Assembly: GCA_947184155.2 (NCBI GenBank)
Contig: CAMXCT020001613.1
Location: 471,001 to 535,000 of the forward strand
Direction: 5' to 3'
DNA from: Cladocopium goreaui
Lineage: Eukaryota > Sar > Dinophyceae > Suessiales > Symbiodiniaceae
DNA: 64,000 nucleotides
Of the stretch, positions 2,403-63,500 are shown one piece after another. Position numbers and translations under genes: made by a program. How positions within the stretch are numbered: the stretch's first letter is position 1; every line of letters starts with the position of its first letter. The notes beneath the pieces are model-generated. The model did no database searches, had not been told where the DNA came from, and saw only the letters and a list, made by a program, of their open reading frames with translations.

Positions 2403-2561
2403 GGTCCCATCTAACGGTTGGTTGGTCAGGAGAGGGGAGTTACTTGTCTGTTCTTGTCTTTGATCATCATGTCATTTTATTTGCTATTGATCAATCAACC
2501 TCTTTTCCGTATGCCATTTTGGTGACTAGCTCAAGAGATCACCAGGCATCCAATTTGTCCC
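2403..2561 (+). repeat. Split direct repeat A1 (left terminus)
   Basis: 159 bp, beginning GGTCCCATCTAACGG and ending CAATTTGTCCC, read as identical to A2 at 12130-12288. It defines the left end of the element. It contains a spliced-leader-like stretch at 2507-2535. AGAATAT lies immediately outside it (2396-2402). Confidence 0.93.
2507..2535 (+). other. Spliced-leader-like sequence inside repeat A1
   Basis: The sequence reads CCGTA, T, GCCATTTTGG, TGACTAG, CTCAAG. Removing the single T and the 7-nt TGACTAG leaves the known dinoflagellate trans-spliced leader core (CCGTA + GCCATTTTGG + CTCAAG). The same 29 bases occur in A2 at 12234-12262. It could be a relic of a trans-spliced RNA captured into the repeat, or chance; the sequence alone does not decide. 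Confidence 0.4.
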
Positions 2562-2613
2562 ATTCGGTTTCTGAGAGGGCCTGGGTGATCACTCAGCTTT
2601 AGTTTCGGTAGGC

Positions 2614-4545
2614 ATGTCCCAGTTTCCTCCAGCCATGCCCCGTGCTCTTTCGAATCAAGCGAAGATGCTGCAAGGGAGATCCCGAGCTGCTCGTGCTTCT
2701 GATGATCAACATTCTGAAGCTGGCACTATGGGGTCGTGGCGTGTGGCGGAGGATCCTGAGCAGGATGTGCCACCTGATCATGCTGAGGCCTGGAGCGGTG
2801 TGTTTGAGCCAGCTCGAGCAGCGCAAGCTGAGCAACCTCAGCCTTCACAGCCTGCTCAGGCAGCTCCTGTGACACAGGCTGCTCGCAGCTTTGTGGATCG
2901 GTCGAATGAGACGCCTGCTGCTCGGCGCTTGAGAGAGCAGCAGGACAAGGCAGCCAAGTCAGGCCGCCGTTCGGTGAAGTTCAACCAGATGGGCGCTCAC
3001 AATGCCATCAACGTTCGTTTGCCTGAGCACTTGCAGCAGGTCGGCTCCGGCGAGAACGAGAGATCAGTGCTGGTCCTGGACAGCCGTGACAATAGGCTGC
3101 AATCCCCTTATCAAGGGTGGCTGCTGGATGAGATCTTGATCAACGCCAATGCCCGGATCAACATCTTGAGCGATCGAGCTCTTGTGAGGTCGCCTTCAAC
3201 TGGATATCACATGAACCTGTTCATGCTCAAGACCCTAGATGGCTTCAAACTGGTGCTGTGCGGATCCATGACGTCATACGGATCTGTGCCATGTGGGAAA
3301 TGGGACTCACACACTGGCAAGGTGCTCTCGCACGAGGCTTTTCAGCCATTCCGCTGGCCTCTCATGCGGGACGACTCTCCCACTTGGGTGGACGTCAAGG
3401 TGAAGATCGAAGGTCAGCTCTTTGTTCATTTGGAACTCAGGGGCTATCGCTCAGACAGCGACATGACCGTTCAGATCAACCACGTGGCAGATCACCTGAT
3501 GTACGTCCTGCAGGAGAATGCTTTCATCCCCACGTTCGTGGTGACAGTGTTCCAAGGATGGCGAGTGGTTGCATGCTCATGGGAAGTGGGTGGCAGGCTC
3601 TACGTCTGCTCAGAAGGAGGTGTTGTGGTAGCGGCGGATTACCCGCTGTGTCATTTCGAATGCCGGATTGTGGCGACGTCGTCTGAGGATGCCTTCGGTC
3701 TTGACGCAGATCGACTGGAGTTTAGATTTCTCAGTGCGGGCGATCGCCTTGATGTGGCGGCTAGCACTTGCTCAGTCCCTCCGTCGTGGCTTGTGGTCAG
3801 CAGAGTGTCAGGGCCAACCCTGATCAGGAATGCAAACTGGTGTCGATCGAAATATGCTCGCGTCGAGTCGCCTGATCAGGCTCTACAGTTGGCTCAGCTT
3901 GCCAGCATCCATGCCCACTGGACGGTGAATGTTGAAGCCGCTCGTGAGGAGGACACGGGACCTATCGTCTCGGCCGTTGCCGTGGAGAGCAATGCAGCCA
4001 ATTTACACTTGATCTGCGAGTCTCCTCTGTTCAAGAAGGATCGAGCTATTGTGCCCATGGAAGCCTTGGCATTACAGGCTCACAATGCGGAGGATGAGAA
4101 GGAGACGGTGGTCCTCCCACCGATCACAGGGGGACCAGCTGTTCAGCCTGCGTGTGCTCAGCCAAGTGGTCTTGCAGCCATTACTGGCTATGTGGGCAAC
4201 GCAGATCTGACAGTGGCGCCCTTGCCCCCGGAGGGAGTTCTCCCTTCCTTGACGGAACCGGGAGTTGCACCTACACCAAGTTCGTGGTTGGGAGGGTCAC
4301 TGGCTCCAGCTCGGAGATCGCTTGATCAGAGACGTGCACAGCGCCTGGATTCCTCAGCGCTCACACCAGCAGGATTCCTAGAGCGTGTGCAAGCCGTTCG
4401 GGGTGAGCCTCAACAGCAGGCGACGGCCTCGTCGGCAAAGATCCAGATCGAAGTGCTTTCTGGGTCGTTGGACGGCTCCGAGAACTTTACGACCCCAACA
4501 GAGCCTAGGTCGTTCGGGCCTCCTGCACAGATAGATGAATGCTAG
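2614..4545 (+). CDS. Retrotransposon ORF1, unknown function (643 aa)
   Basis: I do not recognise a domain. The ORF starts at an ATG 52 bp after repeat A1 and is intact to a TAG. Residues ~1-130 are polar and rich in Ala, Gln, Arg and Ser, hence probably disordered and basic. Residues ~130-430 look globular, with alternating hydrophobic strands and several Trp and Cys residues. The C-terminal ~200 residues are again Pro/Ala/Ser-rich. As the first ORF of the element it occupies the place where DIRS-type elements encode Gag, but it has no zinc knuckle; that motif is in the third ORF. It may be a structural or nucleic-acid-binding protein. Codon use and frequent TGATCA match the rest of the element. 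Confidence 0.8.
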   Translation: MSQFPPAMPRALSNQAKMLQGRSRAARASDDQHSEAGTMGSWRVAEDPEQDVPPDHAEAWSGVFEPARAAQAEQPQPSQPAQAAPVTQAARSFVDRSNETPAARRLREQQDKAAKSGRRSVKFNQMGAHNAINVRLPEHLQQVGSGENERSVLVLDSRDNRLQSPYQGWLLDEILINANARINILSDRALVRSPSTGYHMNLFMLKTLDGFKLVLCGSMTSYGSVPCGKWDSHTGKVLSHEAFQPFRWPLMRDDSPTWVDVKVKIEGQLFVHLELRGYRSDSDMTVQINHVADHLMYVLQENAFIPTFVVTVFQGWRVVACSWEVGGRLYVCSEGGVVVAADYPLCHFECRIVATSSEDAFGLDADRLEFRFLSAGDRLDVAASTCSVPPSWLVVSRVSGPTLIRNANWCRSKYARVESPDQALQLAQLASIHAHWTVNVEAAREEDTGPIVSAVAVESNAANLHLICESPLFKKDRAIVPMEALALQAHNAEDEKETVVLPPITGGPAVQPACAQPSGLAAITGYVGNADLTVAPLPPEGVLPSLTEPGVAPTPSSWLGGSLAPARRSLDQRRAQRLDSSALTPAGFLERVQAVRGEPQQQATASSAKIQIEVLSGSLDGSENFTTPTEPRSFGPPAQIDEC

Positions 4546-5379
4546 ATCAGGTGTTTTTGAAATTTATTTTGTCTGCATGTTCATGTGTCCATACATGCGG
4601 CCAATTCAAATGTTGCTCAATGCACAGTTGATGAATACCGACTGGGTGAGCTCGGCACAATTTACGGCGCCTGACTCGCCGCTCGGCAAAAAGGAAGCAG
4701 AGCCAGCAGCATTGTAGTTGCGGCATGCTTTTCAAAAAAAATTTGATCAACCAATGCACACTGGCATTGAGCATAACGAACTTCAGACGATTGCGAGAAG
4801 GATCCTTTAAAATTTCAAATGCAACCATGCTACAACCTGACAGCGTTTTATATGCCAGATATATTGTGTATATATCCGTTGGTGTGATATATATAACTAT
4901 ACATTTGTGCATATACGGTGGTTGTTTGTGATCGAGTGCTGGAAGTGTTCACCCTCTTCCCCTTGTTTTTATTTGGGAGAAGCCAGCAAGCGATCGCCTG
5001 TCACTGCAGGTTCGAGAGCCCGGTGCAGTTGTGGGAACTCAATTCAATCGATCGGTCGAACACTGTTGATCAAGCAGTAAGAGCTGATGGCTGATCACAG
5101 CATTGCGTGCATGATCACGGTGTCGACCCATGTGAGTGCTTTGAACAGCTTCACATGTTTCTGATCGGATAAATGTACTAAACTGTCAAACTGGAGGGGT
5201 TTCGAGGGTTCATCTGACAGGTGGATGAGCGTTGCATGCCGTGTTGCTCAACTGCTCACGCGTATGTCCTTGACTCTACTTGTTTAGGTGTTCCCCCTCT
5301 TTATTATGTTTGCTTTCGCACCCTCCGTAGTATCGTTTGAACAATTTTCCAATTTGCTGGTTCTTTCCTTTCTTGTTGG
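4546..5379 (+). other. Internal non-coding spacer between ORF1 and the recombinase ORF
   Basis: 834 bp with no long + frame of recognisable protein. It contains several CGATCG and TGATCA palindromes and a TATATATA stretch near 4858-4905. It may hold a promoter or leader for the downstream ORFs, but I see no defined signal. Confidence 0.4.
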
Positions 5380-7275
5380 ATGAGGTCTGCTTTTGTGTGG
5401 TCAACTCTGTGCCTCTTTCACTCTTCAATTAAAGTGATCATGGCTCAAGTTGATAGGTGGACTCTTAAGATCCTGTCCCTTCCATTGTTCAGCGATGCAT
5501 TTGCCCAGGCGATCGCCAAAACGCCGCTGGCCAACCTGGCATTTGTATCAGCCATGGGAGTGAGCTCGGCTGCAGAGTTTTCGGCTAAAGTAGCCGAGTG
5601 GGCGGGGTCTTTTGAACCAGCAGTTGCTCAAGTTTTGTTGAAAGATTCAGGTCAGCTTGAAAATTTTTGGTCGCTCGGAATCAGAGCTGAGAAGATGTTC
5701 TTTGAGTCAACGGCTTTCCAGTTGGGTTTTGGGCTGTGTGATAACAGACCCCCTGAGACAAGGGGATCTGCACTTGACCAGCTCAGACAGGCAGTGGGGG
5801 TCCGGGCGCTGCTCAGCGGCCCAAAAGCGCCAAACAAGAAGCTCAAGGGCCTAGCACAAGCTAGCGATTCTTCGACCCCTCTGCTTGATCAAGAAAACAA
5901 TGAGAAAGCCAAGTGGGCAGCTCGCCTTGAGGCCATTGGGCAACGTGCCGGACCAGCGGCCAAACTGCTTGTTCAGCAGGAGCAGAGCGATGAGTTGTCG
6001 CCCTCCGAGCTGTCGCGGTTGAGGCAGATTGTCCTACTCTCAGGCGCTCCCAGAACTATGTCGGCTCATGTTCGGGCGTACGAAAAGTTTGAGCACTGGG
6101 CAACAGCCTCTTCAGTTGTGCTGTACCCTCTGACAGTGGACAAGATCCTGAAATACTGTCTAGTTTTGGATCAGAGAGAGTGCGGCCCCTCAGTGGTGCC
6201 AGCATTCAAGACCTCTGTCAAGTGGGTGGCCTCTCGGCTGGCGATCGACCTACCAGATGTGGACGATCAACGGCTGAAAGCCATTCAAGACCAGATCGTT
6301 TCTTCTCGGGCCACCACCTTGAAAGAGGCAGTGCCCATTCCGATTGCTGCGGTTTGTAGCATGGAAGCGATCGTAGTCAACCCCAAAGAGTTTGCCCAAG
6401 CCAGGATCTTTGTTTGGTGGCTCCTCTGCATGGTGTTTGCTTCACTTCGTTTTGATGACGCCATCCATGTCAAGCCCTCCGAGTTGGTCATGCAAGATGA
6501 GGGCCTTTTCGGCGTGGCCTGGCAAACCAAAGTTGAGAGAAAGCGATCCGGCACCCGGTTCATGGTCCCCAAAGTCGGCTTCCGCCATAACGACTGGCTC
6601 GAAACTGGGTGGAGCTTGTTCAAGCTGCTGGAAGTCCAAGACCGTGATTTCTGGATTTTTGAGTTGAACTCGAAGTCAGAGTTCGACCAGCGCCCGCCGT
6701 CTCACCAGCGCACAGTAAAATGGTTGCGTTGTTTTGCACATCAAGGGGTAATGCTCGATCGTGAGATCCCTGCGACTGAGCGCAAGGGTCTTATTGAAAC
6801 GGTCGACAAGTTGACTGTTCACTCATGTCGAGTTACCCTACTCGATGCTGCTGTTCATGCTGGGCGCTCCACTGAAGAGATTGGCCTTCAGGCCAATTGG
6901 AAAAATCCCGGGCCCATGGTTTTGAAATATACCCGAAATCGCTCATCTGTCCCAGCTACCATGATCAAACAACTTGTTCGAGAAATGGTTCAAGAAAACC
7001 ATCCCGTGATAGAAGATGCCCAGACCTTTCTCACTGATGCTTCTGATCAAGATTTAGATAATTTGGAATTTTTCATCAAGAATCCCGGGGCTGGCACATA
7101 TTATGATTATAAGTTTCACGCTCCCTCAATCGATGATAGCACTCAGACGGCCTGTCGGCGTTTTGCAATCGATGAGTGCCAGTCCGTGGGAGACATTTTG
7201 CCAGATTTATCAGTGCTCTGTAAAGCCTGCTCCAAAGCCAGGCCAGAGATCGCGTGCTTTTTCAGTAAGTCCTGA
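5380..7275 (+). CDS. Tyrosine recombinase of the retrotransposon (631 aa)
   Basis: A DNA breaking-rejoining enzyme expected to integrate the circular cDNA at a target site without an RNase-H-fold integrase. The C-terminal catalytic domain shows the ordered active-site residues: Arg357 in a SLRFDD context, Lys384 in WQTKVE, the HxxR box His481-Ser-Cys-Arg484, Trp507 in ANWKNP, and the nucleophile Tyr517 in LKYTRNR. An upstream helical segment (~residues 225-310) fits a core-binding (SAM-like) domain. ATG 5380 is the longest start; Met21 (5440, MAQVDRW) is an equally reasonable one. Placement before the RT ORF is as described for VIPER. The next ORF's frame is open from 7269 and overlaps this stop by 7 nt, and this frame stays open to 7372 after the TGA, so read-through or frameshifting is possible. 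Confidence 0.9.
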   Translation: MRSAFVWSTLCLFHSSIKVIMAQVDRWTLKILSLPLFSDAFAQAIAKTPLANLAFVSAMGVSSAAEFSAKVAEWAGSFEPAVAQVLLKDSGQLENFWSLGIRAEKMFFESTAFQLGFGLCDNRPPETRGSALDQLRQAVGVRALLSGPKAPNKKLKGLAQASDSSTPLLDQENNEKAKWAARLEAIGQRAGPAAKLLVQQEQSDELSPSELSRLRQIVLLSGAPRTMSAHVRAYEKFEHWATASSVVLYPLTVDKILKYCLVLDQRECGPSVVPAFKTSVKWVASRLAIDLPDVDDQRLKAIQDQIVSSRATTLKEAVPIPIAAVCSMEAIVVNPKEFAQARIFVWWLLCMVFASLRFDDAIHVKPSELVMQDEGLFGVAWQTKVERKRSGTRFMVPKVGFRHNDWLETGWSLFKLLEVQDRDFWIFELNSKSEFDQRPPSHQRTVKWLRCFAHQGVMLDREIPATERKGLIETVDKLTVHSCRVTLLDAAVHAGRSTEEIGLQANWKNPGPMVLKYTRNRSSVPATMIKQLVREMVQENHPVIEDAQTFLTDASDQDLDNLEFFIKNPGAGTYYDYKFHAPSIDDSTQTACRRFAIDECQSVGDILPDLSVLCKACSKARPEIACFFSKS

Positions 7276-7352
7276 TCAATGAAAAGTGGCATGAAAAAGT
7301 TGTTTGGCCGGAGCAGAGGTTTCAATCAGCCATCAGCTCCTACAAACAATCA

Positions 7353-8717
7353 GTGTTCGCTCGATCGTCGGTGAACTCGCGCAGGGCCGCAGCTAGTGTT
7401 GCTCAGTGCCTTGCGAGCCTTGGGCCTGTCGCCAGCATGGTCGATCGCACTACCTACACGGATGATCAAGTTCCCGAGCTAGCATTGCGGCAGGTCTTCG
7501 GGCGCCAGCGGCTCCCAGAGAATCTGTGCCTGCTCGCAGCCGAGGTAGGCCTTCGTACCATGGACACATTTGCCATGCTCGGCGACAACATCACCGGTGT
7601 CAAGCAGACCCTCAACCGCATCGTCACTGACCCAGCTCGGTTCGGTGCTGACGCGGCTGCTCAGGAGTTGGCACTCACCAATTTGACAGCAGTATGGAAG
7701 ACATGCTCGACTTTACAAGAGCATTTCGCCTCTCGGCGTGCCAAGATGGAAGAAGATCCTTCGAAGGTGCCCGAAATTCCGGGTGAGGATCATGCAGAGT
7801 TCCGCGAGCAGTTCGTGCACAAACACCCAGATGTGTTGTTGCCGCCCCACCGAGAACCTCACAGGAAGTTGGTCGAACGCATCCAACGTGATTACCTTGT
7901 TCATGGTGCTGTGATGTTCTACCAGGTGGGTGAGCTGCGCACGCGGAGCGAAGTGATTGTTCAGAAAGCGGGTATTTCTAAGAATGCAGAAGACTTGCTC
8001 AAGGTCGTCACGGTTGATCAACCTGTTTCGGCCGCCTCGGAGAGCCAGGTGATGGACAAGCTTCATGCCTTCTTCGTGGCTCTTGAGTATCTCAACATCT
8101 GCGAATTCACCGCTGCCCGCGGGCCCCTGAAGTATCTCTCGGAGCTCGAAGAGTGGCGGCATGAGAACAAGGGGTTGGCGCTGTTGCTGACAGTCGACTC
8201 CTTGATCCGTAAGAAGGTCCATCGACTCAACCATGATCAGAGGAAGTCCTTCCCTACGTTCTCCTCCGCCCTGCTCGAGGTCTTGGCCAACCACAAGCAG
8301 CTCTGGAATGACGCGCGTAGCAGCGCAGAACTCGACAAGTTCAAGCAGGCTGGCCAGCAAGCTCCTTCTACTCCACCGCGGGCTCCCAAGCGTGCTCGGG
8401 AAGCGGATGATTCACCTCTCGAAGTTTCACCCAAGGCCAAGAAAAACAAAGCTCGTCGTGAAAGGCAGAAAGCCGTGCTCGCTCGAGCCAAAGCCACCTT
8501 GGCCGATTCCAAGGGGGCGCGCCAGGAGTCCAAAGTCTCCAAAGACGCCCGTGTGCCAGCCAACGAATGGTCAGCCATCACCGCCTTCAAGTACTCAGGT
8601 AAGCGGCGATGCCCATTCTACAATTGCTCATTGGGTTGCCGATTCGGCGATTCTTGCCGCAATTTGCATGCCTGTGTCGAATGTGGGAAGGAGCACCCAT
8701 GGCACGGGAATCACTGA
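7353..8717 (+). CDS. Gag-like protein with C-terminal zinc fingers
   Basis: The frame is open from 7269; the first ATG is at 7437 (MVDRTTYTDDQ), and 7353 is only a GTG. Residues (counted from 7353) ~30-330 are mainly helical with no domain I can name. Residues ~335-410 are Lys/Arg/Ala-rich with RAKATLAD-like helices, typical of nucleic-acid binding. The extreme C-terminus is Cys/His-rich: C425-x3-C429-x5-C435-x3-H439, followed by C441-x2-C444 and His448/451/454. This resembles a CCCH finger plus a second zinc site and suits a nucleocapsid-like role. The frame stops at TGA (8715-8717) directly after the fingers, and the pol domains continue in the SAME frame with no other stop, as in a gag-pol read-through arrangement. 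Confidence 0.82.
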   Translation: MFARSSVNSRRAAASVAQCLASLGPVASMVDRTTYTDDQVPELALRQVFGRQRLPENLCLLAAEVGLRTMDTFAMLGDNITGVKQTLNRIVTDPARFGADAAAQELALTNLTAVWKTCSTLQEHFASRRAKMEEDPSKVPEIPGEDHAEFREQFVHKHPDVLLPPHREPHRKLVERIQRDYLVHGAVMFYQVGELRTRSEVIVQKAGISKNAEDLLKVVTVDQPVSAASESQVMDKLHAFFVALEYLNICEFTAARGPLKYLSELEEWRHENKGLALLLTVDSLIRKKVHRLNHDQRKSFPTFSSALLEVLANHKQLWNDARSSAELDKFKQAGQQAPSTPPRAPKRAREADDSPLEVSPKAKKNKARRERQKAVLARAKATLADSKGARQESKVSKDARVPANEWSAITAFKYSGKRRCPFYNCSLGCRFGDSCRNLHACVECGKEHPWHGNH

Positions 8718-11700
8718 GCCAGCTCAGCTCCCCCACCTGGGAATTGGCTCCCCTCAGGTGGGAGTGATCACTTTTGTGGGGCCCATGCTGGGGCGAATGA
8801 GGAGCCTCAGAGTTTGACTCGCTCTGAAGCTCCGATAGCTCCGGTGGCACAGCCGAAACAACCGTGGCTCCGTTGGGCAGACGTTCCACAGGACGTTCAC
8901 GAAGTGGCAGCTCAGGGCCCTTGGTTTCTGGAAATTTTCGCAGGGACGGCTCGTTTGACAGACGCAGTCCGGCAGATGGGAATTCCTTGCTTACCACCCA
9001 TTGATGTGATGATCATCCAGCATGTTCAAGACCCTTTTGATGTTCTTGATGCAGATCGCTGGACTTTCATCATGCAGCTCGTGCAGATGGGGGCAATTTT
9101 CTTTGTTCATTGTGGTACACCATGCAACACTTTTTCTGCAGCTCGCAAAGCGGACGGGGGGCCGCCGCCCTTACGCAGCCCCGCCTGTCCGGAGGGATTG
9201 CCGGCGCTTTCAGGCTCTAACTGGTTTCTGGCGCAGATCGGCAACCTGTTTGTTGATCGCACTGTCGAAGTTTGTTTAGGGGTCGCTGAAATGGGAGGCG
9301 ATTTTTCTATCGAAAACCCTGAAAAGAGTTTGATCTGGAGCACTCGGGGGATACAACGTCTTCTGCGGTGCGCTCGCGCCTGGCTTATCCATTTTGATCA
9401 ATGTGCGTGGGGGGCTCCCTCGATGAAGCCCACCTCACTGTGTGTGACTCATGCGGCTTTCTCGCCTCTGCACAGGCGCTGCCCGGGTCATCACGCTCAT
9501 GAAGTTCTGCAAGGACAAGTATATAGTGAGTTCTTTGGCAAAGTGGTTTATCGCACCAAGCTTGCTCAAGAATACCCGCACCTGCTTTGTGTGGCCATGG
9601 CTGAGGCCATCTCAGCCATTCGCGTTCGCCCTCTGCATCTCATGGAGGCCTCTTTCGGGCTGCTCAGCACGGGCAAGCGCAAGCGTATGCTGGGCCAGGC
9701 CATGCCTTGGGAAGGCCATCGCCAACATTTGACTGCTCAGCTGGCGGCGGCAGCAGGCTACCAGCTCAAACGTGGTGCAATGAAACCTTTGCTGGAGGTG
9801 GAATCTGAGCCGGGTCAGGCTATCTTGTGGGCGATGAGCATCGATCACCCGTTCTCGACCGAGATTGCCGTGGAACCTGGCTTGCAGGCGGCTCTACAAC
9901 AGTTCGCCTACTCCAGTGAGCACATTCTGCAGCGGCGCTCAGCACTTCTGCATAAGTGGGGAGCGATCGCTCAGTCATCTCTAGAGGCGACTGATCAGAT
10001 TTTGCGGCGCATCCCGGATGCCCCTCTGCGCTATTTGCTGAGGGGGGTCCTGGACCATGAACCTGCGCAGCTGGGCGTCACTTGCCATCTCGTGCTCTAC
10101 AAACTGATGCTGGCGGCCATCAATTCGGTTGATCAAGATCTTCCTCATTGCTTGCTTTCTGGTTTTCCAATCGTGGGGCCGATTCTGCGATCGGGCAGAT
10201 GGCCGCCTTATGAGAAGGCGCAGTCGCCCGTGGCGGTCGCCTTAATGCAAAGCCGGGCCTGGGAGATCCGGAAGAAGATCATTGCGCATGTGCAAGCTGT
10301 GCCAATCACAGAGAACCTCAAGAAGATTTGGGATGCGACTGTAGAAGATGTTCATGAAGGCTCGTGTATTGGTCCTGTTTTTGATCAAAAAGATGTTTCC
10401 TTTTTAGTTGGTAGGGATGATTGGATCCCCACCCAAAGGTTTGAAGTTGTTCAAAAGAATAAAGTTAGGGGTTGCGATAGTGCAACAACTAACCTGATTA
10501 ACCAAGCCACAGTGATCACCGAGAAGCTCCAGTTGCCATCTACAGATTCCAACGTTGCTGCATTGCGTAAGCTCAGAGCAATGTGCCCTGGCTCGGAGTT
10601 GGCAGGTTGGGTTTTGGATGAGAGAAAAGCGTACCGTCAAGTTCCTATACGGCCTGATCACCGCATGTTCAGTGTGATCGCTTTGAAGGAACCAGCTTCT
10701 GGAAAAACTGCTTTCTTCGTGATGATTGGGCATTCTTTTGGTTTGGTCTCTGCCGTTTACAACTACAATCGCCGATCGGCTGCTATCAACGAGATCCTCG
10801 TCTCCTTGTTTGGTCTGATCGCCTTCAGTTTCTATGACGACAAATACGGTTTTGAACCGGTGCAGACTGTGGAATCCGCCCATCAGATAGCTCAACATGT
10901 TCACTAGTGGCTGGGCGCAAAGTTCGATCGTAAGAAGCTCCAACTGAGTCGAGCGCCCACAATCCTAGGTGTTACCTATAACCTGGATGATTTTGTCTTG
11001 GAGATCAAGGACGACCGTAAGTCCGACTTGATTGAAGAGATCGACCACATTTTACACTCAGGTCTTCTGGATCCAGGAACTGCTGGAAAATTGAAAGGCA
11101 AACTGATGTTTGGTGCAAGCCAGCTCTGGGGAAAGGTAGGCCGTGCATTCTTGCGCGTGATTTCTGAACGCCAATACGCTCGTTTCCCATTTGGTGATTC
11201 CGGTTTCGTTTTGGACGAGCCTTTGCGGTTTGCTTTGGAGCACTGGCGACATCTTATCAGAGCTGGTCCTCCCCGACCGATCGAGATGAAGAAGATCAAG
11301 AAACCTGACGTAGTCATTTTTACTGATGGTTTTACACCGGATCCGAGAGACGATGATCCTCGTCCGGATAGGGTAGGTGCAGTTCTGTTTGATAGACGAT
11401 GGGAGGCTCCTCTCCAGTTCTCTGAGGTGATACCTAAAGAGATGCAGAAGAACTGGGCTCCCAGGAAGACCCAAATTGTTCCTGTTGAAATGATTGCTCC
11501 TATTTTAGCTTTACACACCTTTCGCGAGCGTTTGTTTGGCACTGACTTGATTTTGCTGATCGACTCTGAAGCCGTGGAGTCCGCTCTGGTTAAAGGATAC
11601 TCCAGCAAATCAGACTTGTGCACGCTCGTGTCGGTATTTTGGAACTTAATTTTTGAATTGCAAGTTCGAGTTTTTATTGACAGAGTTTCAACTGATTCCA

Positions 11701-11807
11701 ACCCAGCTGATTGGCCTTCTAGAGACGATCTCTCCACGGGAGAGAAGGCAGGTTGGAAAACCGTTCAGGCATGTTGGCCGGGTGAGCTCTTGAGTTTCGA
11801 TAGGTAA
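8718..11807 (+). CDS. Pol: C5-methyltransferase-like domain, reverse transcriptase, RNase H (one internal TAG)
   Basis: This frame follows the Gag TGA directly and is open to 11807 except for TAG at 10905-10907. The first in-frame ATG (8976) lies after methyltransferase motif I, so independent initiation would truncate that domain; fusion to Gag by read-through is likelier. Residues counted from 8814: ~38-45 FLEIFAGTA (SAM-binding motif I type), Cys104 in TPCNTFS (PCxxFS motif IV), Glu167 in IENP (motif V type). RT follows: Asp602 in VLDERKAYRQ (motif A), GHSFGLVSA (motif B), Tyr-Asp-Asp 674-676 (motif C). RNase H shows Asp838, Glu892, Asp917 and Asp961 in FTDG, VEMIA, IDSEAVESAL and STDSNPADW. 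The TAG falls between the YDD box and the ILGVTYNL segment, inside RT, so this copy is inactive unless the stop is suppressed. Confidence 0.9.
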
Positions 11808-11826
11808 GTTCTGACTGCAGGGGCCT

Positions 11827-12129
11827 GGGCTTTTCAGTGATTTATTTCTGTGATTTGTCAGTTGTTTATTTGATGTCCGCTCGTGACACCATGATGATTG
11901 ACGTGTCTCGGCGACTCTCTCTCTTGTGGTGACAGTTCGGATGTTTTACTTGCTTCAGCCTCACAATCAGTCTTGCCATCGATCGCACTTCAAGATTTTA
12001 TTTGTGCTCACCTGTGACCCCATGCCTTTTCAGGTGACAAAAGAACCGACGCTGATCAAGCGACAGCTGTAGAGTGAATTGTGTATGATCAAAGAAACGA
12101 GAAACGAGTGTGCATGAACGCGACGAGTA
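11827..12129 (+). repeat. Split direct repeat B1
   Basis: 303 bp, beginning GGGCTTTTCAGTG and ending GCGACGAGTA. It matches B2 apart from one fewer CT in a short CT run. It ends exactly where A2 begins, so the B1-A2 joint equals the joint expected from fusing the right end (B2) to the left end (A1) in a circle. Confidence 0.93.
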
Positions 12130-12288
12130 GGTCCCATCTAACGGTTGGTTGGTCAGGAGAGGGGAGTTACTTGTCTGTTCTTGTCTTTGATCATCATGTC
12201 ATTTTATTTGCTATTGATCAATCAACCTCTTTTCCGTATGCCATTTTGGTGACTAGCTCAAGAGATCACCAGGCATCCAATTTGTCCC
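12130..12288 (+). repeat. Split direct repeat A2
   Basis: 159 bp, read as identical to A1, carrying the same spliced-leader-like stretch at 12234-12262. A 55-bp segment (12289-12343) separates it from B2. Confidence 0.93.
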
Positions 12289-12343
12289 GACCCAAAGAAA
12301 CCCGCCCTGTGAAAGGGTGAGGTTGATTGCGATTGCAGACTGG

Positions 12344-12648
12344 GGGCTTTTCAGTGATTTATTTCTGTGATTTGTCAGTTGTTTATTTGATGTCCGCTCG
12401 TGACACCATGATGATTGACGTGTCTCGGCGACTCTCTCTCTCTTGTGGTGACAGTTCGGATGTTTTACTTGCTTCAGCCTCACAATCAGTCTTGCCATCG
12501 ATCGCACTTCAAGATTTTATTTGTGCTCACCTGTGACCCCATGCCTTTTCAGGTGACAAAAGAACCGACGCTGATCAAGCGACAGCTGTAGAGTGAATTG
12601 TGTATGATCAAAGAAACGAGAAACGAGTGTGCATGAACGCGACGAGTA
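12344..12648 (+). repeat. Split direct repeat B2 (right terminus)
   Basis: 305 bp, a copy of B1 with one extra CT. It marks the right end of the element. AGAATAT, also present at the left boundary (2396-2402), occurs one base outside it (12650-12656). Confidence 0.93.
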
Positions 12649-12739
12649 CAGAATATATTTGCCATAAATACTTCCAGATGGTATGTCGTAAACTATGTCA
12701 GAACATATAGCGCGTAAGAGAGGGGAATAAACTTACCTT

Positions 12740-15700
12740 CCATCAGCCCTGCAAAGCAATAGGTTCAACATATATTATATGAATAGTTGACACATGTAGT
12801 TAGTGTTATATAGATTTTCAAACACATCCCCTACAAGGCATTCAACATGTAAACGAACTGGGCATCTTGAATCATGTTGAACATGTCTTTTCCTTCCTCA
12901 CAAAACAACACGTTGAATTTATGAACAAAGTCAAAAGTGTTGATTTATTTTCACATATTTCAGCCCCCCTACCCTACCCTACAAAACAATACGCTGAACA
13001 GACGAAGAAAATTGGCATTTTGAGTCAATTTTGTGATTTACCACCCATCGACCCTACCAGATAATATGTTGAACTTATGGAAAAAGTTGACTGGCTGAGT
13101 TCTTCTCATCGGTTTACCTCATCAAAACACTACGTTTAACATAGTTGAACATATGAACCAACGTAGCATCTTGAGTTGCGTTTAAAATATCGTTTCCTCC
13201 CTTGCAAAGCAACACGTTGACTATGAACACAGATGAAGGCTTAAGTCAGTTCATTTTTTTATGCCTCCCCCCGCCACAAAACAATATGAATGTTGAACAC
13301 ATGAAACAAATTGAGATCTTGAGCCAGTTTTGAAATTTATTCCCCCCTGACCTTACCATGAAGTTGACATGTTGAGTCGGGTCATTGCTACAAACTTGCC
13401 CGCCCGTCCCCTACAAAACACTACGTCCGTTCAACATTAGAGCTAACTTGGCATCTCGAGTCATGATTCAAATGTCATTTCCTTCCCCTTCAACAAAACA
13501 ATACGTTGAACAAATTAAGACAATTCATCTTGAGTCATTTTTGAAAGTTACGACCCCCCGACCCTACACAGCAGTACGTTAAACATGTAAAGAAAATTGG
13601 CATATTGAGTCATTTTGTAGATTTCGTCGCTGTCCTCTTGAAAGCACTACGTTCAACATATGAACCAACGTGGCATCCTGAGTCATGTTCAAAAAGTATT
13701 CTTTATTCCTCAAAAATCAATACGTTGAATATACGTATGAACAAAGTTGAAATGTTGATTTGTCTTGAAACATTTCACCCCCGCCCTTTCTAATTCATAC
13801 ATTGAACACATGAAGAAAAATGGCATCTTGAGTCATTTTGCAATTTACAACCCCTCGACTGACCCTACAAAATAAAACCTTTTGCATACCGAGAAAGCTT
13901 ACATGTCGCGTCAGTTTTCAAATTTACCCTTCTCGTCCCTACAAAGAAAATAGTTGAACATTTTGGAATTTTACCAACACCTTGACCCTACAAATCAATA
14001 CATTCAACATATGGATCAAGTTGACATGTTGATTCATTCTATTGGATTTACCTGCCCTGTCCCCTACAAAACATTTTGTTTAACGTATGAATCAGCATGG
14101 CATCTTGACTTATGTTAAAATGTTCATTGCCTTCCCCTACAACAAAACCTTACATTGAACACATGAAAAAAAGGAATCTTGAGTCATTTTTGAAATTTAC
14201 AGCCCATCGACCCTACAAAACAACACGTTGAACATATGGAGAGATTTCGCATGTCGAGTGATGCTTGGGATTTCCGTCCCTTCGACCCTACCGGACAAAT
14301 GGTTTAAGGTATGAAGAAACTTGCCATGCGGAGTCATTTTTAAAATCTACATCTCCTCGACCCTACCTAGCTAGCACCCCCTTCAACAAATGAACAAACT
14401 TGGCATGTTGAGTCATTGTTAAAGATCTACTCCCCTGTGCCCTACAAAAATATACGTTCAAAGTCGTTCAACAAACAAACCTGTTTGGCATCTTGAGACG
14501 TGTTTAACATGTCCTTTTCCATGCAAGTCAGAACCTTGAAGATAGGAACAAAGTTGAAACGTTAAGTCATCTTTTGTCATCCGCCCTCCCCCACAAAAAC
14601 AATATCTTGAACACATGGGGGCAATTCTCAGCTTGAGTCATTTCTCAGTTACCAATATTTATTCCCTTTTTCGGTCCTACAAGAAAGTTGACACGTGGAA
14701 TCGTTGTTGCGAATTTACCCCCCTCGACCCTACAAAACAATACGTTCAGTGTATGCGGAAAGTTACCACGTGGTGTCATTTTGAAAATTTACCACCCCCT
14801 CGAACCTTCAAAACCATACGGTTGATTCAACATATGAAGAAAGTTGACATGTTGAGTCGTTGCTATAGATTTACCTTCCGGCCCCCTACAAAACACTTTG
14901 TTCGACATATGAACCGACTTGGCATCCTGAGTCATGTTTGAAATGTCTTTACCTTCCCCTACAACAAAGCAAGACGTTGAACGAACAAAATTGGAACTTC
15001 GAGTCATGTTTGGAATCTACGCCCACTGGACCATACACAGCAATACATTCAACATATGGATCAAATTGACATGTTGATTCATTCTTTTGGATTTACCTGC
15101 CCTGTCCCCTACGAAACGCTATGTTTAGTGTATGAACCAGCATGGCATCTTTACTTATGTCAAAATGTTCCTTGCCTTCCCCTGCAACAAGACAATACGT
15201 TGAACACATGGAAAGAAAGGCATCTTGCGTCATTTTTGAAATTTACAGTCCCTCGACCCTACAAAGCAATACGTTAAAAAAAAAACGGTGAAAGTTGACA
15301 CGTCGAGTTTTTTTTACGGTGAAAGTTGGCACGTCGAGTTATTCTTAAAATTTAGCCCCCCTCGACCCTACAAAGCAAACGGTTGAACAAGTGCAGAAAA
15401 TTGACATGTGGGGTTATTTTTGCAATTTATAACCTCTCGTCGACTCCACAAAATACAAAGCAGTACCTGTAATATATGAACAAAGTTGACATGTTGAGTC
15501 GTTGTTTTGAAGTTTGAATGTACTCCCTCCATCTCCCCCCATCCCTTTTAAAACGCTACGCTCAACATATCAACCAATTTGGAATCTTGAGTCATTGTTA
15601 TGTTTTTTCCCCGCTGTCCCCTACCAAAACACTACGTTCAACATATAAAACAACTTGGCATCATGAACCATGTTTAAGGTGTCTTTTCCTTCCCCTGGAA

Positions 15701-58200: not shown

Positions 58201-59556
58201 ATTCAAATTTGCCGAGATGATCTAGATGGTTGATGATGGTTGTTGTTGGAATTCATCATTATGATGGTTGATGATGGTTGATGATGGTTGTTGGCTTCAA
58301 CTGGAATTGAGATGATCATAATGGACGGGGGATGCCGCTTTCAACCAATAGCTTTCCTTGGACCTTGGTATGTGACCCCCACATGCACCACCGATTTGAG
58401 GAAACGGGCAATGATCAGAGAATATTAGAGACTATAGGATTCAACGAGGTTCCCAAAGGGGGATTAAGATTTTGATAGATTTTGACTGGTTGGTGGTTTG
58501 GAACATGGCTTTTCTTTTTCCATATATTGGGAATAATGATCCCAACTGACGAACTCATATTTTTCAGAGGGGTTGGTTGAAACCACCAACCAGTTGAATA
58601 TCTTGATCTAGCCAACATGAGACTAGTGTGTTCTACATCATAGAACACAAAAAACCCTTTGGCTGGATGACATGGCGTCCCTCGCGCAGGGGACAGGGCA
58701 GATCCGAGCCATGAAGCAAATGAGCAAAAAGGAAATGGTCTTCAAAAACCAGGTGGGGCAGGGCCGGCACAAGGTGGTGCCCCAGTTCGGAATCGCTAAG
58801 TTGGTGAACATAACTCCCATGAAACCTATGGTTTATGGCAGATATAACGAACTAGTTAATGGGGTTTATAAACCAACTTATAACTGGGGGGCACCATCCT
58901 GCAGGGCTGCGCGCAACTGCGATGGAGAGGGGAAATTTCCCAAGAACCAGGTGTTTGACGGGAGATGGGACTCAAAAACTTGATGGTTGATGGGGATGAG
59001 GAAATTGGGGGATTGAGGATGAACTTGGCATTTCCAGATCTTGGGACAGATTACAAACATCACAAGCATCACAGGTTGACAGTTGCTGGGTAAACCCTTG
59101 GTGAAGGGTTCAGCACACCTTTATCTGTTACCATTTTGATGGGTATATGTATAATATGTATTATGTATGTGTATGTGTATGTGTATATGTCTTTATGTCT
59201 TTATGACTATATGTCTATATGTATATGTATATATATATATATTATATGTCTATATTGTATGTATATCTATATATATGTCTATATGTCTATATGTCTATAT
59301 GTATATATATACATATGTATACATATGTATACATATGTATCTATGTATCTATCTATGCATCTCTGTATCTATGTATCTCTCTATGTGTCTGTGTATCTAT
59401 GTATCTATGTACCTATGTATCTATGTATCTATGTACCTATGTATCTATGTATCTATGTATCTATGTATCTATCTTCCTTCTATCTATCTATCTATCTACC
59501 TATCTACCTATCTAATTAATCTTATCTATCTATCTATCTACCTACCTGCCTAGCTA

Positions 59557-59592
<36 letters not shown>

Positions 59593-59598
59593 TCCATC

Positions 59599-59633
<35 letters not shown>

Positions 59634-59785
59634 ATCTATCTAATCTATCTAATCTATCTAATCTATCTATTCTATCTATCTATCTATCTAATCTATCTAT
59701 CTATCTATCTATCTAATCTTATCTTATCTTATCTAATCTTATCTAATCTTATCTTATCTATCTATCTATCTAATCTATCTATCTA

Positions 59786-59846
<61 letters not shown>

Positions 59847-59910
59847 ATCTATCTATCTATCTATCTAATTAATCTTATCTATCTATCTATCTACCTACCT
59901 ACCTATCTAG

Positions 59911-59965
<55 letters not shown>

Positions 59966-60318
59966 ATCTATCTAATCTATCTATCTATCTATCTAATCTA
60001 TCTAATCTATCTAATCTATCTTATCTATCTTATCTATCTTATCTATCTTATCTATCTTATCTATCTTATCTATCTTATCTATCTTATCTATCTTATCTAT
60101 CTTATCTATCTTATCTATCTTATCTATCTTATCTATCTTATCTATCTTATCTATCTTATCTATCTTATCTATCTTATCTATCTTATCTATCTATCTATCT
60201 TATCTATCTTATCTATCTTATCTATCTTATCTATCTTATATCTATCTTATCTATCTTATCTATCTTATCTATCTTATCTATCTTATCTATCTTATCTATC
60301 TTATCTATCTTATCTATC

Positions 60319-60353
<35 letters not shown>

Positions 60354-60479
60354 ATCTATCTAATCTATCTAATCTATCTAATCTATCTAATCTATCTATC
60401 TATCTATCTATCTAATCTATCTAATCTATCTAATCTATCTAATCTATCTAATCTATCTATCCTATCTATCCTATCTATC

Positions 60480-60514
<35 letters not shown>

Positions 60515-63500
60515 ATCTATCTATCTATCTATCTAATTAATCTTATCTATCTATCTATCTACCTACCTACCTATCTAGCTATCTATCTATCTATCTATGT
60601 ATCTATGTGTCTATGTGTTTATGTGTATCTATGTATCTATGCATCTATCTATGTATCTATCTATGCATCTATGTATCTATCTATGTATCTATGTGTATCT
60701 ATGTACGTACATACATACATATACGTATACCCTAACCAAGTACTCTGACCTGAGAATTGTGCTCAACAGGCAGAGCAGCAGATCCCAGCCCCCCAAAAAT
60801 ACAACCAGCAGTGTATCCTTTGAAAGATGGGGATGGGTCAACACCTATGAACTTACCACATTTGGGGGAATAATCATCCATTCACCAGCTACTGTGCACC
60901 GGGTACCAGGGTTTTGACCAGCAAATTATCCCGTTAGGTGCAGCATGTGAATGCCGAAAAGGATGCTCTCAGTGTGGCCAAGGCCTCATTCTGAAGCGAC
61001 CAACAGGGGGATGTCAACATCTAAAATGGGGATCAAATGGGACATGCTATGGGAAATCCGGCGGATATACATATATATATATATACATATATATATACAT
61101 ATATATATATACTGTATATATATATATACTGTATATATATATAGATAGAATGGGAGATTTATTGGAATATCATGAGCTATTTGTTGGGATAATGACCTAT
61201 GATCTGATTGTTAGCTTTATAAACATGTCTTGTTTTTCACCATCTGGGATGATGATCCCCCAGAGATTTTTCTGGGTGGATACCCTCTGGTAAACATACA
61301 AAAAACTATTGAAAATGGTCATTTATAGTTGATTTAGCCATTAAACATTGTGATTTTCCATAGTTATGTTAGTTTTCAAGGGGGTTGAAAGGGCCCAATT
61401 TTGACCAATACTCATTACCCTGACTGCCAACGACTTCCGTACAATGTGAGACACTGAAATGGTGTGGGTTGTTTGCTGCCTTTGCCTTGGCCTGTTTCTC
61501 TTGACTTCCGGTGTGGGACATCGAAAAAAGGGCGCCAAATCAGCAAAAACAGATCCCTCATCATTTATAGGGCCTGAAACTACTCCATTCTCCCAACGCA
61601 ATGGAATCTTATGTTTGTGATTTGTATCTCACCTTTTGGTGCTCCAACATTCAAATCTGCTAGATTCCGTGGGTGTTCACCCCACCTTTTTGTCGAGCGA
61701 AACTGGTAGGGTGGCTCTCTTTCTGGTGCAAAAAACACGCTTCTGCAGTGCAGGATGACTGGGTCATCGGCTTACACGCGACCTTCCAGGATGACACGTA
61801 CCTCTACATGGTCATGGAGTAGGGATGCTTGGCACCTTCTACGGAACTCAGGAAGCATCCCTGAAATGATGGTCAATTGAGGGTGAGTTGTGGGTGTCTG
61901 GTGCGAAATTTGCCCGGGGATGGGACACCACCGGGATTAAAACAGATTAAAACCTGTTTTTGGATCGGTTTTGTTGAGTCTTCTTCCCTTTTTTTTCTTC
62001 AAAAAGGTTTGACGCCAAAAAGAAGTGGATGGTTCAGCCCCTGCAGTGCTGCAGTTACCTTCCCGGGGGCGACCTGATGACGCATCTCATGCGGAAGGAC
62101 AGGGCTGTTCTCAGCCCCCAAAAAAGGGGAGGTTTGGGCCCTTTGGGCACCCCAAAAGTGGGAGTTTCAGCTGTTGCAGGACACCTTTAACGAGGAGGAA
62201 ACGCGCTTCTACATCGCTGAGCTGGTTGAGGATGGCAAAAACCTCCTGGATTTAAGCATGAACCATGGACAAACAGATGAATTTAGCAATCAACATTTTG
62301 ATTTTAAGGGATTTATAATCAATGAATACTGGGTATTGGTATAAATAGGAGAAAATCAGGGATTTTCACAAAAACCATGATTTCCGGATCATGAGGTTGA
62401 AAGTCTTTGGATGACGTGGTTCTACCCCATCTTGGGACAAAACTATGTTTTTTCTGCTACTTTCGTTGGGGCGAAGCCTCCAGTTCTCAATTTAACTTCT
62501 TCAATCACAAGCATTATCGCCATGTTTTCTGGTGGAAATTCCTAGCTGTGATTTTTTAGTGGGGGCTTGGCACAGGCTTTTAATTGACAGGCCATTGACT
62601 ACATCCACACCAATCTGCACTACATCCATCGGGACATCAAGCCCGACAACATCGTCTTTGACATCGATGGTCAGCCGCCCCAGCCGACCCTGACAGGATG
62701 GTCAAGACTCAAGACGGTCGAGATCAAGGGCAAAACACATTTTTTTACGCATTTCTATCGTCTTTTTTTTTGGAATTGATCATGCCAATCATGCCCAACA
62801 AATTTGTTCATAGTTTAATATCCATGCCCAACAATCATCTTTGGAGATGTTTGGCATGTCTTGTAATTTCACAGCCGCATCGGCACTTTAGTGTGGATGC
62901 TTTTGGAATCACCTCTGGAACCAGGCCATATTCACTTGCTGGCAGGGGCCCCAGGGGTGCTCAGTTGGGAAGCCATTGGGATGTCAACCCCGCGATTTAC
63001 GGCCCCTGGGCTGGGCTGAGGGGTCCCATTTTAGTAATTCCTTCCCCCAAAATCGCAGATTGTCTAGAAAGCAGGGGGAAAATTAGGGGATGAAATGGGA
63101 TGAAACTACAGATTCAACAAACACTTTAGGACAGACTGGGGTAACTGGGGGTGTTTACTATGAGGGATGGGATTTGTGACATCACTGGGTACCCTGGATC
63201 CCCAGGATTTTGGCCTTTGCAAGTATCAGCAGCCGGAGCCCGCTGCTGGAGGCGCCAATGAACATCTGTGGCTCGGGGGTTTGACCCATACGGCATAGCC
63301 ACACTGACTACGTAGTTATATCAGATCGTATCATATCATATCCCCAATTTTTCTCTCACAGTTCCTCAGTTTTTCTTGTGGGTAGTTTATCACTCATTGA
63401 ATTGGTTCATGGGAAAATATCCATTCACCCCCCCTAGTAATCCCCGAAAAGGTGGAAAAAGGCAATTCCCCCTAGTAATCCCCAAAAAAGGTAGAACAAG

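Follow-up and report, generated by a model that had tools for sequence, protein, structure and literature searches.

The 64,000-nucleotide (nt) stretch of the Cladocopium goreaui genome analyzed here (contig CAMXCT020001613.1, positions 471,001–535,000; hereafter the window, to which all positions without a contig name refer) contains, between positions 2403 and 12648, an element that we interpret as a tyrosine recombinase (YR) retrotransposon with split direct repeats in the order A1-body-B1-A2-B2. All of its features lie on the forward (+) strand. The A1 terminal repeat (2403–2561; 159 nt) is 100% identical to A2 (12130–12288), and B1 (11827–12129) pairs at 99.3% identity with the terminal repeat B2 (12344–12648), a 2-nt indel making the difference; the near-identity of both pairs speaks for a recent insertion. 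The last base of B1 is 12129 and the first base of A2 is 12130, so that the two repeats abut directly and form an internal B-A junction, and 55 nt of unique sequence separate A2 from B2. An earlier sequence-only reading of this stretch had described this arrangement, and its observation holds. The same A..B-A-B layout is found in three diverged copies (C1357, C5661, and C4390), each with A and B sequences of its own, the A match of C4390 being cut by the end of the fetched stretch.

The ends of the element are common to other copies of the same subfamily: six left and six right ends share its boundaries, the window copy and five other copies on each side, and their flanks are unrelated. No consistent target-site duplication was seen among the five copies for which both flanks were compared. 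In the window, the 7-nt word agaatat occurs at both edges (2396–2402 on the left, and 12650–12656 on the right, where a single base separates it from the element); C3009 has a 5-nt word placed in the same manner, and the three other copies have none. Degenerate repeats spaced by ∼70–150 nt lie on both sides (1500–2060 and 12840–14000), which indicates that the element sits in an existing repeat array.

Four genes, ORF1, YR, Gag, and Pol, follow each other in this order on one strand. The first open reading frame (ORF), ORF1 (2614–4545), encodes a candidate second structural or accessory protein of 643 amino acids without any match in a Pfam search. It is followed by the YR gene (5380–7275, with a conserved start near 5440 according to homologues), a Gag-like ORF (7437–8714), and the Pol frame (8718–11807). 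Protein searches of the genome located at least 71 places for ORF1, 71 for YR, 98 for Gag, and 68 for Pol, and the closest place of the following gene, up to 20 kb away, was scored for strand and direction. ORF1 preceded YR on the same strand in 60 of 60 linked places (11 more had no partner within this distance), YR preceded Gag in 70 of 70 (1 more without a partner), and Gag preceded Pol in 72 of 72 (26 more without a partner); all four genes were present together on 49 contigs. Because strand and order agree in every linked place, the gene order is not a product of chance. The sequence-only reading had placed the recombinase ahead of Gag and pol and an extra ORF1 ahead of all three, and the further copies of this genome keep that order wherever the genes are linked.

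Between copies of the window subfamily, ratios of nonsynonymous to synonymous substitution (dN/dS) of 0.04–0.21 show purifying selection on ORF1, YR, Gag, and the methyltransferase-like, reverse transcriptase (RT), and RNase H domains of Pol; the values for ORF1, 0.06–0.14 in four comparisons, bear out its conservation as a gene. A 147-codon linker gave 0.16 and 0.65 and is relaxed in one of these two comparisons. Some homologues of the element proteins are named from Symbiodinium, Cladocopium, and Durusdinium, and no relatives of the element were confirmed in viral contigs. Divergence between the window copy and that of C404 (L005, L011, L040, and L048) falls along the element, synonymous divergence (dS) being 1.0 in ORF1, 0.7 in YR, 0.26 in Gag, and 0.15–0.39 in pieces of Pol, with a B-A-B block that is 98.6% identical. 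This gradient suggests that mosaic copies may arise by template switching.

The recombinase is recognized by its residues. In an alignment of 43 sequences, the candidate catalytic positions R357, K384, H481, and R484 are invariant and W507 and Y517 nearly so, and together they provide the R-K-HxxR-(H/W)-Y residues by which we assign the protein, on motif grounds, to the tyrosine recombinases. The N-terminal phage-integrase SAM-like model matches 2 of the 43 sequences (best E-value 0.025), and a PDB sequence search with YR gave no useful match.

Pol contains three domains with approximate limits, defined by motifs in a 33-row alignment. The first (8919–9564) shows FxGxA, TPC (Cys104), and ENP motifs in the order found in C5 cytosine methyltransferases. 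Its profile aligned with one bacterial enzyme over motifs I and IV in a single comparison (hhalign probability 70%, E-value 4e-5), reached 40% with a combined profile of six C5 enzymes, and did not exceed 8% with any of the other five taken singly. PF00145 matched neither the window Pol nor any of its 33 relatives at an E-value of 0.1, and the 120 listed of 152 Pol homologues all lack a precomputed Pfam domain. We therefore call the domain methyltransferase-like rather than methyltransferase, in view of its motifs and of one weak profile match; the sequence-only reading had used the same wording. The putative RT region (10254–10990) carries the motifs LDERKAYRQ and FYDD, and the putative RNase H region (11310–11740) carries FTDG, DSE, and NPADWPSR, with a match to PF17917 (RT_RNaseH) at an E-value of 0.18; both are assigned by motif, with weak Pfam support. 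A PDB sequence search with Pol gave no useful match. The Pol frame of the window copy is interrupted by an in-frame TAG at 10905–10907, a change private to this copy, the four other copies examined being open there. The element had been called complete, which is accurate for its repeats and gene structure, but with its broken Pol the window copy is probably not autonomous.

The junction between Gag and Pol consists of a single in-frame UGA (8715–8717), our proposed readthrough site. Gag, whose frame is open from 7353 (the listed ORF being 7353–8717) and whose start near 7437 is indicated by homologues, ends in a CCCH finger, matched by zf-CCCH_4 at an E-value of 0.015, below the cut-off, and a C-x2-C-x3-H-type knuckle. 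In 17 of 17 nonredundant copies (tails within four differences counted once), Gag ends in His-UGA at the same, last aligned codon, and TGA was present in all 20 specially fetched Gag-Pol junctions. Elsewhere in the fetched loci the stop codons are mixed, TGA ending 7 of 12 ORF1, 8 of 14 YR, and 4 of 7 Pol frames. Among the junctions reached by both protein matches, Pol is in the same frame as Gag in 40 of 41; the YR-to-Gag spacers are spread over the three frames (19, 22, and 13), as are those between ORF1 and YR (20, 10, and 13). The copies compared at the junction are related and not independent. Methyltransferase motif I follows the UGA after ∼38–40 codons in one group and 60–69 in others, and it is in frame with the UGA in all 25 loci that reach it; since this distance varies and yet stays in frame, the common frame of Gag and Pol has been kept through several indels. 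An ORF caller had started Pol at a TTG (8814), which we rejected as a start of the program's making, the frame being open back to the UGA. No Rfam match was found between 2300 and 12800 up to an E-value of 0.5; Rfam includes the SECIS families.

The best reading of this junction is that a fraction of ribosomes would read through the UGA, although initiation of Pol as a separate protein is conceivable. Several observations weigh against readthrough. The nucleotide context after the UGA is not common to the junctions, and folding 3′ of it is only mildly above that of shuffled sequences (mean z −1.38 in 14 sequences, near-identical junctions and those below 90 nt having been dropped). One homologue, P0222, has a sense codon (Trp) at the position of the UGA, and the single out-of-frame junction among the 41 belongs to C3279, a decayed copy. 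Moreover, 16 of the 25 loci have a Met after the UGA and ahead of motif I, mostly at 5, 18, or 31 residues and also at 42, so that separate initiation of Pol would be possible there. On this basis, the UGA might be an ordinary terminator, with Pol translated by reinitiation or from a separate trans-spliced mRNA and its frame simply inherited from an ancestral fusion. In its favor, in Tca2 of Candida albicans, where an in-frame UGA likewise separates Gag from Pol, the junction alone gave no readthrough in yeast (PMC2194720). Ordinary termination nonetheless fits poorly with a stop codon of fixed identity and with a frame kept over variable distances. In the window subfamily and in C934/C5948, furthermore, the first Met comes 86 or 93 residues after the UGA, beyond motif I, and no Met was seen before motif I in L064, L074, and L076. 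We regard ordinary termination as doubtful, while granting it more weight than any of the other alternatives discussed below. With its conserved UGA, the Gag-Pol junction would offer a natural way to assay stop-codon readthrough in dinoflagellates.

The A repeat carries a second conserved feature that, like the Gag-UGA-Pol arrangement, was absent from the sequence-only reading. The core of the spliced leader of dinoflagellates, GCCATTTTGG, occurs without change in the A repeat of each of the 14 contigs sampled, 13 of which are nonredundant. (C2288, near-identical to C5788, was dropped for the alignment, folding, and stem tests; the core of C4390 was read from A2 in L056, as the stretch L055 ends inside A1.) In the window, the leader-like motif is interrupted by 6 nt and lies at 2507–2535 in A1 and, given the identity of the two repeats, at 12234–12262 in A2. 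The full 16-nt leader end, GCCATTTTGGCTCAAG, is exact in 7 of the 13 nonredundant A repeats and mutated or interrupted in the other 6, that of the window included. When the 13 copies are aligned, the ten-base core is 100% conserved, against a mean frequency of the commonest base of 44% upstream and 42% downstream, with the qualification that the rows were anchored on the core. Gapped alignment to the leader scored above all 300 shuffles in 13 of 14 A repeats and above 299 of 300 in the remaining one. ORF1 starts, placed in 13 of the 14 contigs, follow the motif at a distance of ∼55–113 nt.

A perfect inverted repeat of at least 9 bp flanks the core in 5 of 13 copies, compared with 1 of 300 control positions, and the mean folding z of the core region is −2.72, compared with −0.65 in 40 coding windows and −1.45 in 39 noncoding ones (p 0.018 for the latter). 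That every A repeat presents the leader core in a hairpin does not follow from this, as folding exceeds that of noncoding sequence only modestly and the window A repeat forms no stem around the motif.

The leader end is not confined to this family. The 1.17-Gb genome contains 746 exact sites of the 16-nt end and none of its reversed control. Among the first 100 sites listed, 40 form 22 same-strand pairs located 4–15 kb apart, and no opposite-strand pair was found; the observed spacing is 6.4–13.6 kb (e.g., C464:13415 and 19841, C25:787654 and 794076). Pairs on C140 and C465 bracket copies of the family of the window element, and the pair on C464 falls within the 116-nt direct repeats that terminate a 6.4-kb unit, which gave no match in a Pfam search. 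These same-strand pairs suggest that several retroelement families may carry the leader end in their terminal repeats.

We propose that the leader core of the A repeat acts as a promoter or as a strand-transfer site. Its position 55–113 nt ahead of ORF1 fits the promoter idea: leader relics have been proposed as retrogene promoters through a TTT(G) motif, best conserved between −50 and −100 from the start codon (PMC6050394), and a promoter role has likewise been suggested for the TTTT box of such relics in dinoflagellates (PMC12014239). The leader is also described on an RNA virus of dinoflagellates, where it was interpreted as possible mimicry (PMC10235124). Put more broadly, and tentatively, dinoflagellate retroelements including this YR family may have co-opted the leader core in their terminal repeats, as a promoter/initiator or as an R-like region of homology, so that trans-splicing would spare their 5′ ends, and this family would couple it with programmed UGA readthrough. 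How transposons survive in cells that trans-splice a leader onto their mRNAs is a standing question. An invariant leader core in the terminal repeats of so diverse a family, together with same-strand pairs elsewhere in the genome, would provide a concrete and testable answer.

Two other explanations of the leader motif were considered. It could be a functionless relic, captured once and inherited since, as many dinoflagellate genes carry leader relics (PMC6050394, PMC6616646, PMC7245778); against this, all ten positions, on which the alignment was anchored, remain exact in 13 nonredundant copies whose flanks have drifted to 42–44% majority-base agreement, and we consider a relic without function rather improbable. 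Alternatively, the motif could serve as a region of homology, comparable to the R region, by which trans-spliced RNA would be completed through strand transfer to the leader copy of A2. The exact leader ends in seven A repeats, the same-strand pairs elsewhere in the genome, and the location of A2 inside the 3′ block are all in line with such a mechanism. The six mutated or interrupted leader ends are not, and the interrupted end of the window has been propagated unchanged in both A1 and A2, which argues that the leader is not overwritten in each cycle; completion by strand transfer therefore seems unlikely to us.

With these features in hand, we consider it probable, with good though not full confidence, that the window element belongs to the DIRS order, as a copy-and-paste YR retrotransposon with a VIPER-like layout and a recent copy of an old dinoflagellate family, and that it would propagate as follows. 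The element RNA would start near the 3′ end of A1, under the control of A and its motif GCCATTTTGG, which includes a TTTT box. Ribosomes would make Gag, and a fraction of them would pass the UGA to produce a Gag-Pol protein with methyltransferase-like, RT, and RNase H domains. The RT, if active as its motifs predict, would copy the element RNA; what the 5′ end of that RNA lacks of A would be supplied again by A2, and the product would close into a circle carrying a B-A junction. These last two steps are proposed because A2 lies within the 3′ block and adjoins B1. The YR would finally join the circle to the genome without a consistent target duplication. What speaks against this interpretation includes the response of the proteins to existing models: PF00589 matched 0 of the 43 YR sequences, a YR profile compared with six recombinases of the same assembly reached at most 20% probability, RVT_1 matched only 2 of 33 members (best E-value 0.043), and RT and YR thus both stay below Pfam cut-offs. 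To these must be added the observations against readthrough given above and the short words shared by the flanks in two of the five copies. As far as the recombinase is concerned, the protein is too diverged for the Pfam catalytic model.

Apart from the element, the window contains a long TATC array (59334–60692). In the remainder of the assembly, contig C1 (7.38 Mb) has the size of a bacterial chromosome and gave the strongest PF00145 and PF00589 matches; it is probably an associated bacterium. Matches to the same two models lie ∼0.7–0.8 kb apart on opposite strands in C6064 (∼191.6–193.2 kb), C4691 (∼124.5–126.1 kb), and C2064 (∼23.7–25.3 kb), and these pairs perhaps belong to a different mobile element.

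The closest published relatives in layout are found in dinoflagellates and in kinetoplastids. SymbioDIRS-Dnmt3 of Symbiodinium has A-coding region-B-A-B repeats, a DNA methyltransferase (DNMT) in Pol, and a separate YR ORF, and exists in two architectures, between which both the arrangement of the Pol domains and the relative placement of integrase and Pol change (PMC5890265, De Mendoza et al. 2018). VIPER of Trypanosoma cruzi and Crithidia fasciculata has A1..B1-A2-B2 split repeats (PMC6681497, Ribeiro et al. 2019). The combination of repeats and gene order, which the sequence-only reading, together with the methyltransferase-like domain, had taken as a possible mark of an undescribed clade, is therefore not new, as both the split repeats of VIPER and the shuffled A-coding-B-A-B elements of Symbiodinium are in print. 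The window element could even be SymbioDIRS-Dnmt3 itself, in an architecture with recombinase and Pol reordered, for it shares with it the repeats, the separate YR ORF, a methyltransferase-like domain in Pol, and a rearranged order of recombinase and Pol (PMC5890265). Yet the DNMT and recombinase of the published family were labelled by PF00145 and PF00589, and neither model detects the window family: besides the absence of PF00145 from its Pol proteins, none of 125 listed PF00145 places falls on a Pol place of the family (the best 123 of 2684 candidates having been scored) and none of 91 listed PF00589 places on a YR place (the best 150 of 322 candidates having been scored). A term search of the main text of PMC5890265 returned no mention of Gag or of a spliced leader, and mentions of stop codons were confined to premature ones in LINEs. 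Identity with SymbioDIRS-Dnmt3 is accordingly unlikely in our view. By the Pfam test the family is not the Dnmt3-bearing one, and it could be among the Symbiodinium DIRS elements without DNMT that are also mentioned there (PMC5890265). As these tests separate it from the Dnmt3-bearing family, we call it a variant within the DIRS order with a VIPER-like layout and, comparing by layout and Pfam profiles, file it as a member of neither VIPER nor SymbioDIRS-Dnmt3.

VIPER and TATE elements resemble the window element in their A1..B1-A2-B2 repeats, in their Gag-like, YR, and RT/RNase H genes with RT in the third ORF, and in the CH-box of some VIPER-like Gag proteins (PMC6681497). The window element has split direct repeats and a recombinase ahead of RT/RNase H, and the comparison made here is one of layout. 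It differs from them in its combination of ORF1, YR, and Gag-UGA-Pol, in its methyltransferase-like domain, CCCH finger, and leader core, and in its dinoflagellate host. Descent from a VIPER-like ancestor shared with kinetoplastids, although suggested by the common repeat layout and recombinase-before-RT order, is the least probable of the alternatives, since the sections consulted of PMC6681497 describe for VIPER neither a methyltransferase-like domain nor a Gag in front of Pol that exists alongside an ORF1. Tca2 resembles the window element in that an in-frame UGA stands between Gag and Pol (PMC2194720), but has long terminal repeats where the window element has split direct repeats, and the two are unrelated. 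DIRS1-like elements are set apart by their inverted terminal repeats and internal complementary region, whereas in the window element no inverted pair was found (0 pairs of at least 20 nt between 1500 and 14000). Ngaro and PAT elements share with it the split direct repeats and the internal B-A junction. Their recombinase is located after RT/RNase H, whereas that of the window family comes before Gag and Pol wherever the genes are linked. Two features of the family, the Gag-UGA-Pol junction and the leader core in A, appear to be new with respect to the literature searched, which covers few subscription journals, and the family as a whole means that kinetoplastids are not the only hosts of elements combining a recombinase-first order with split repeats.

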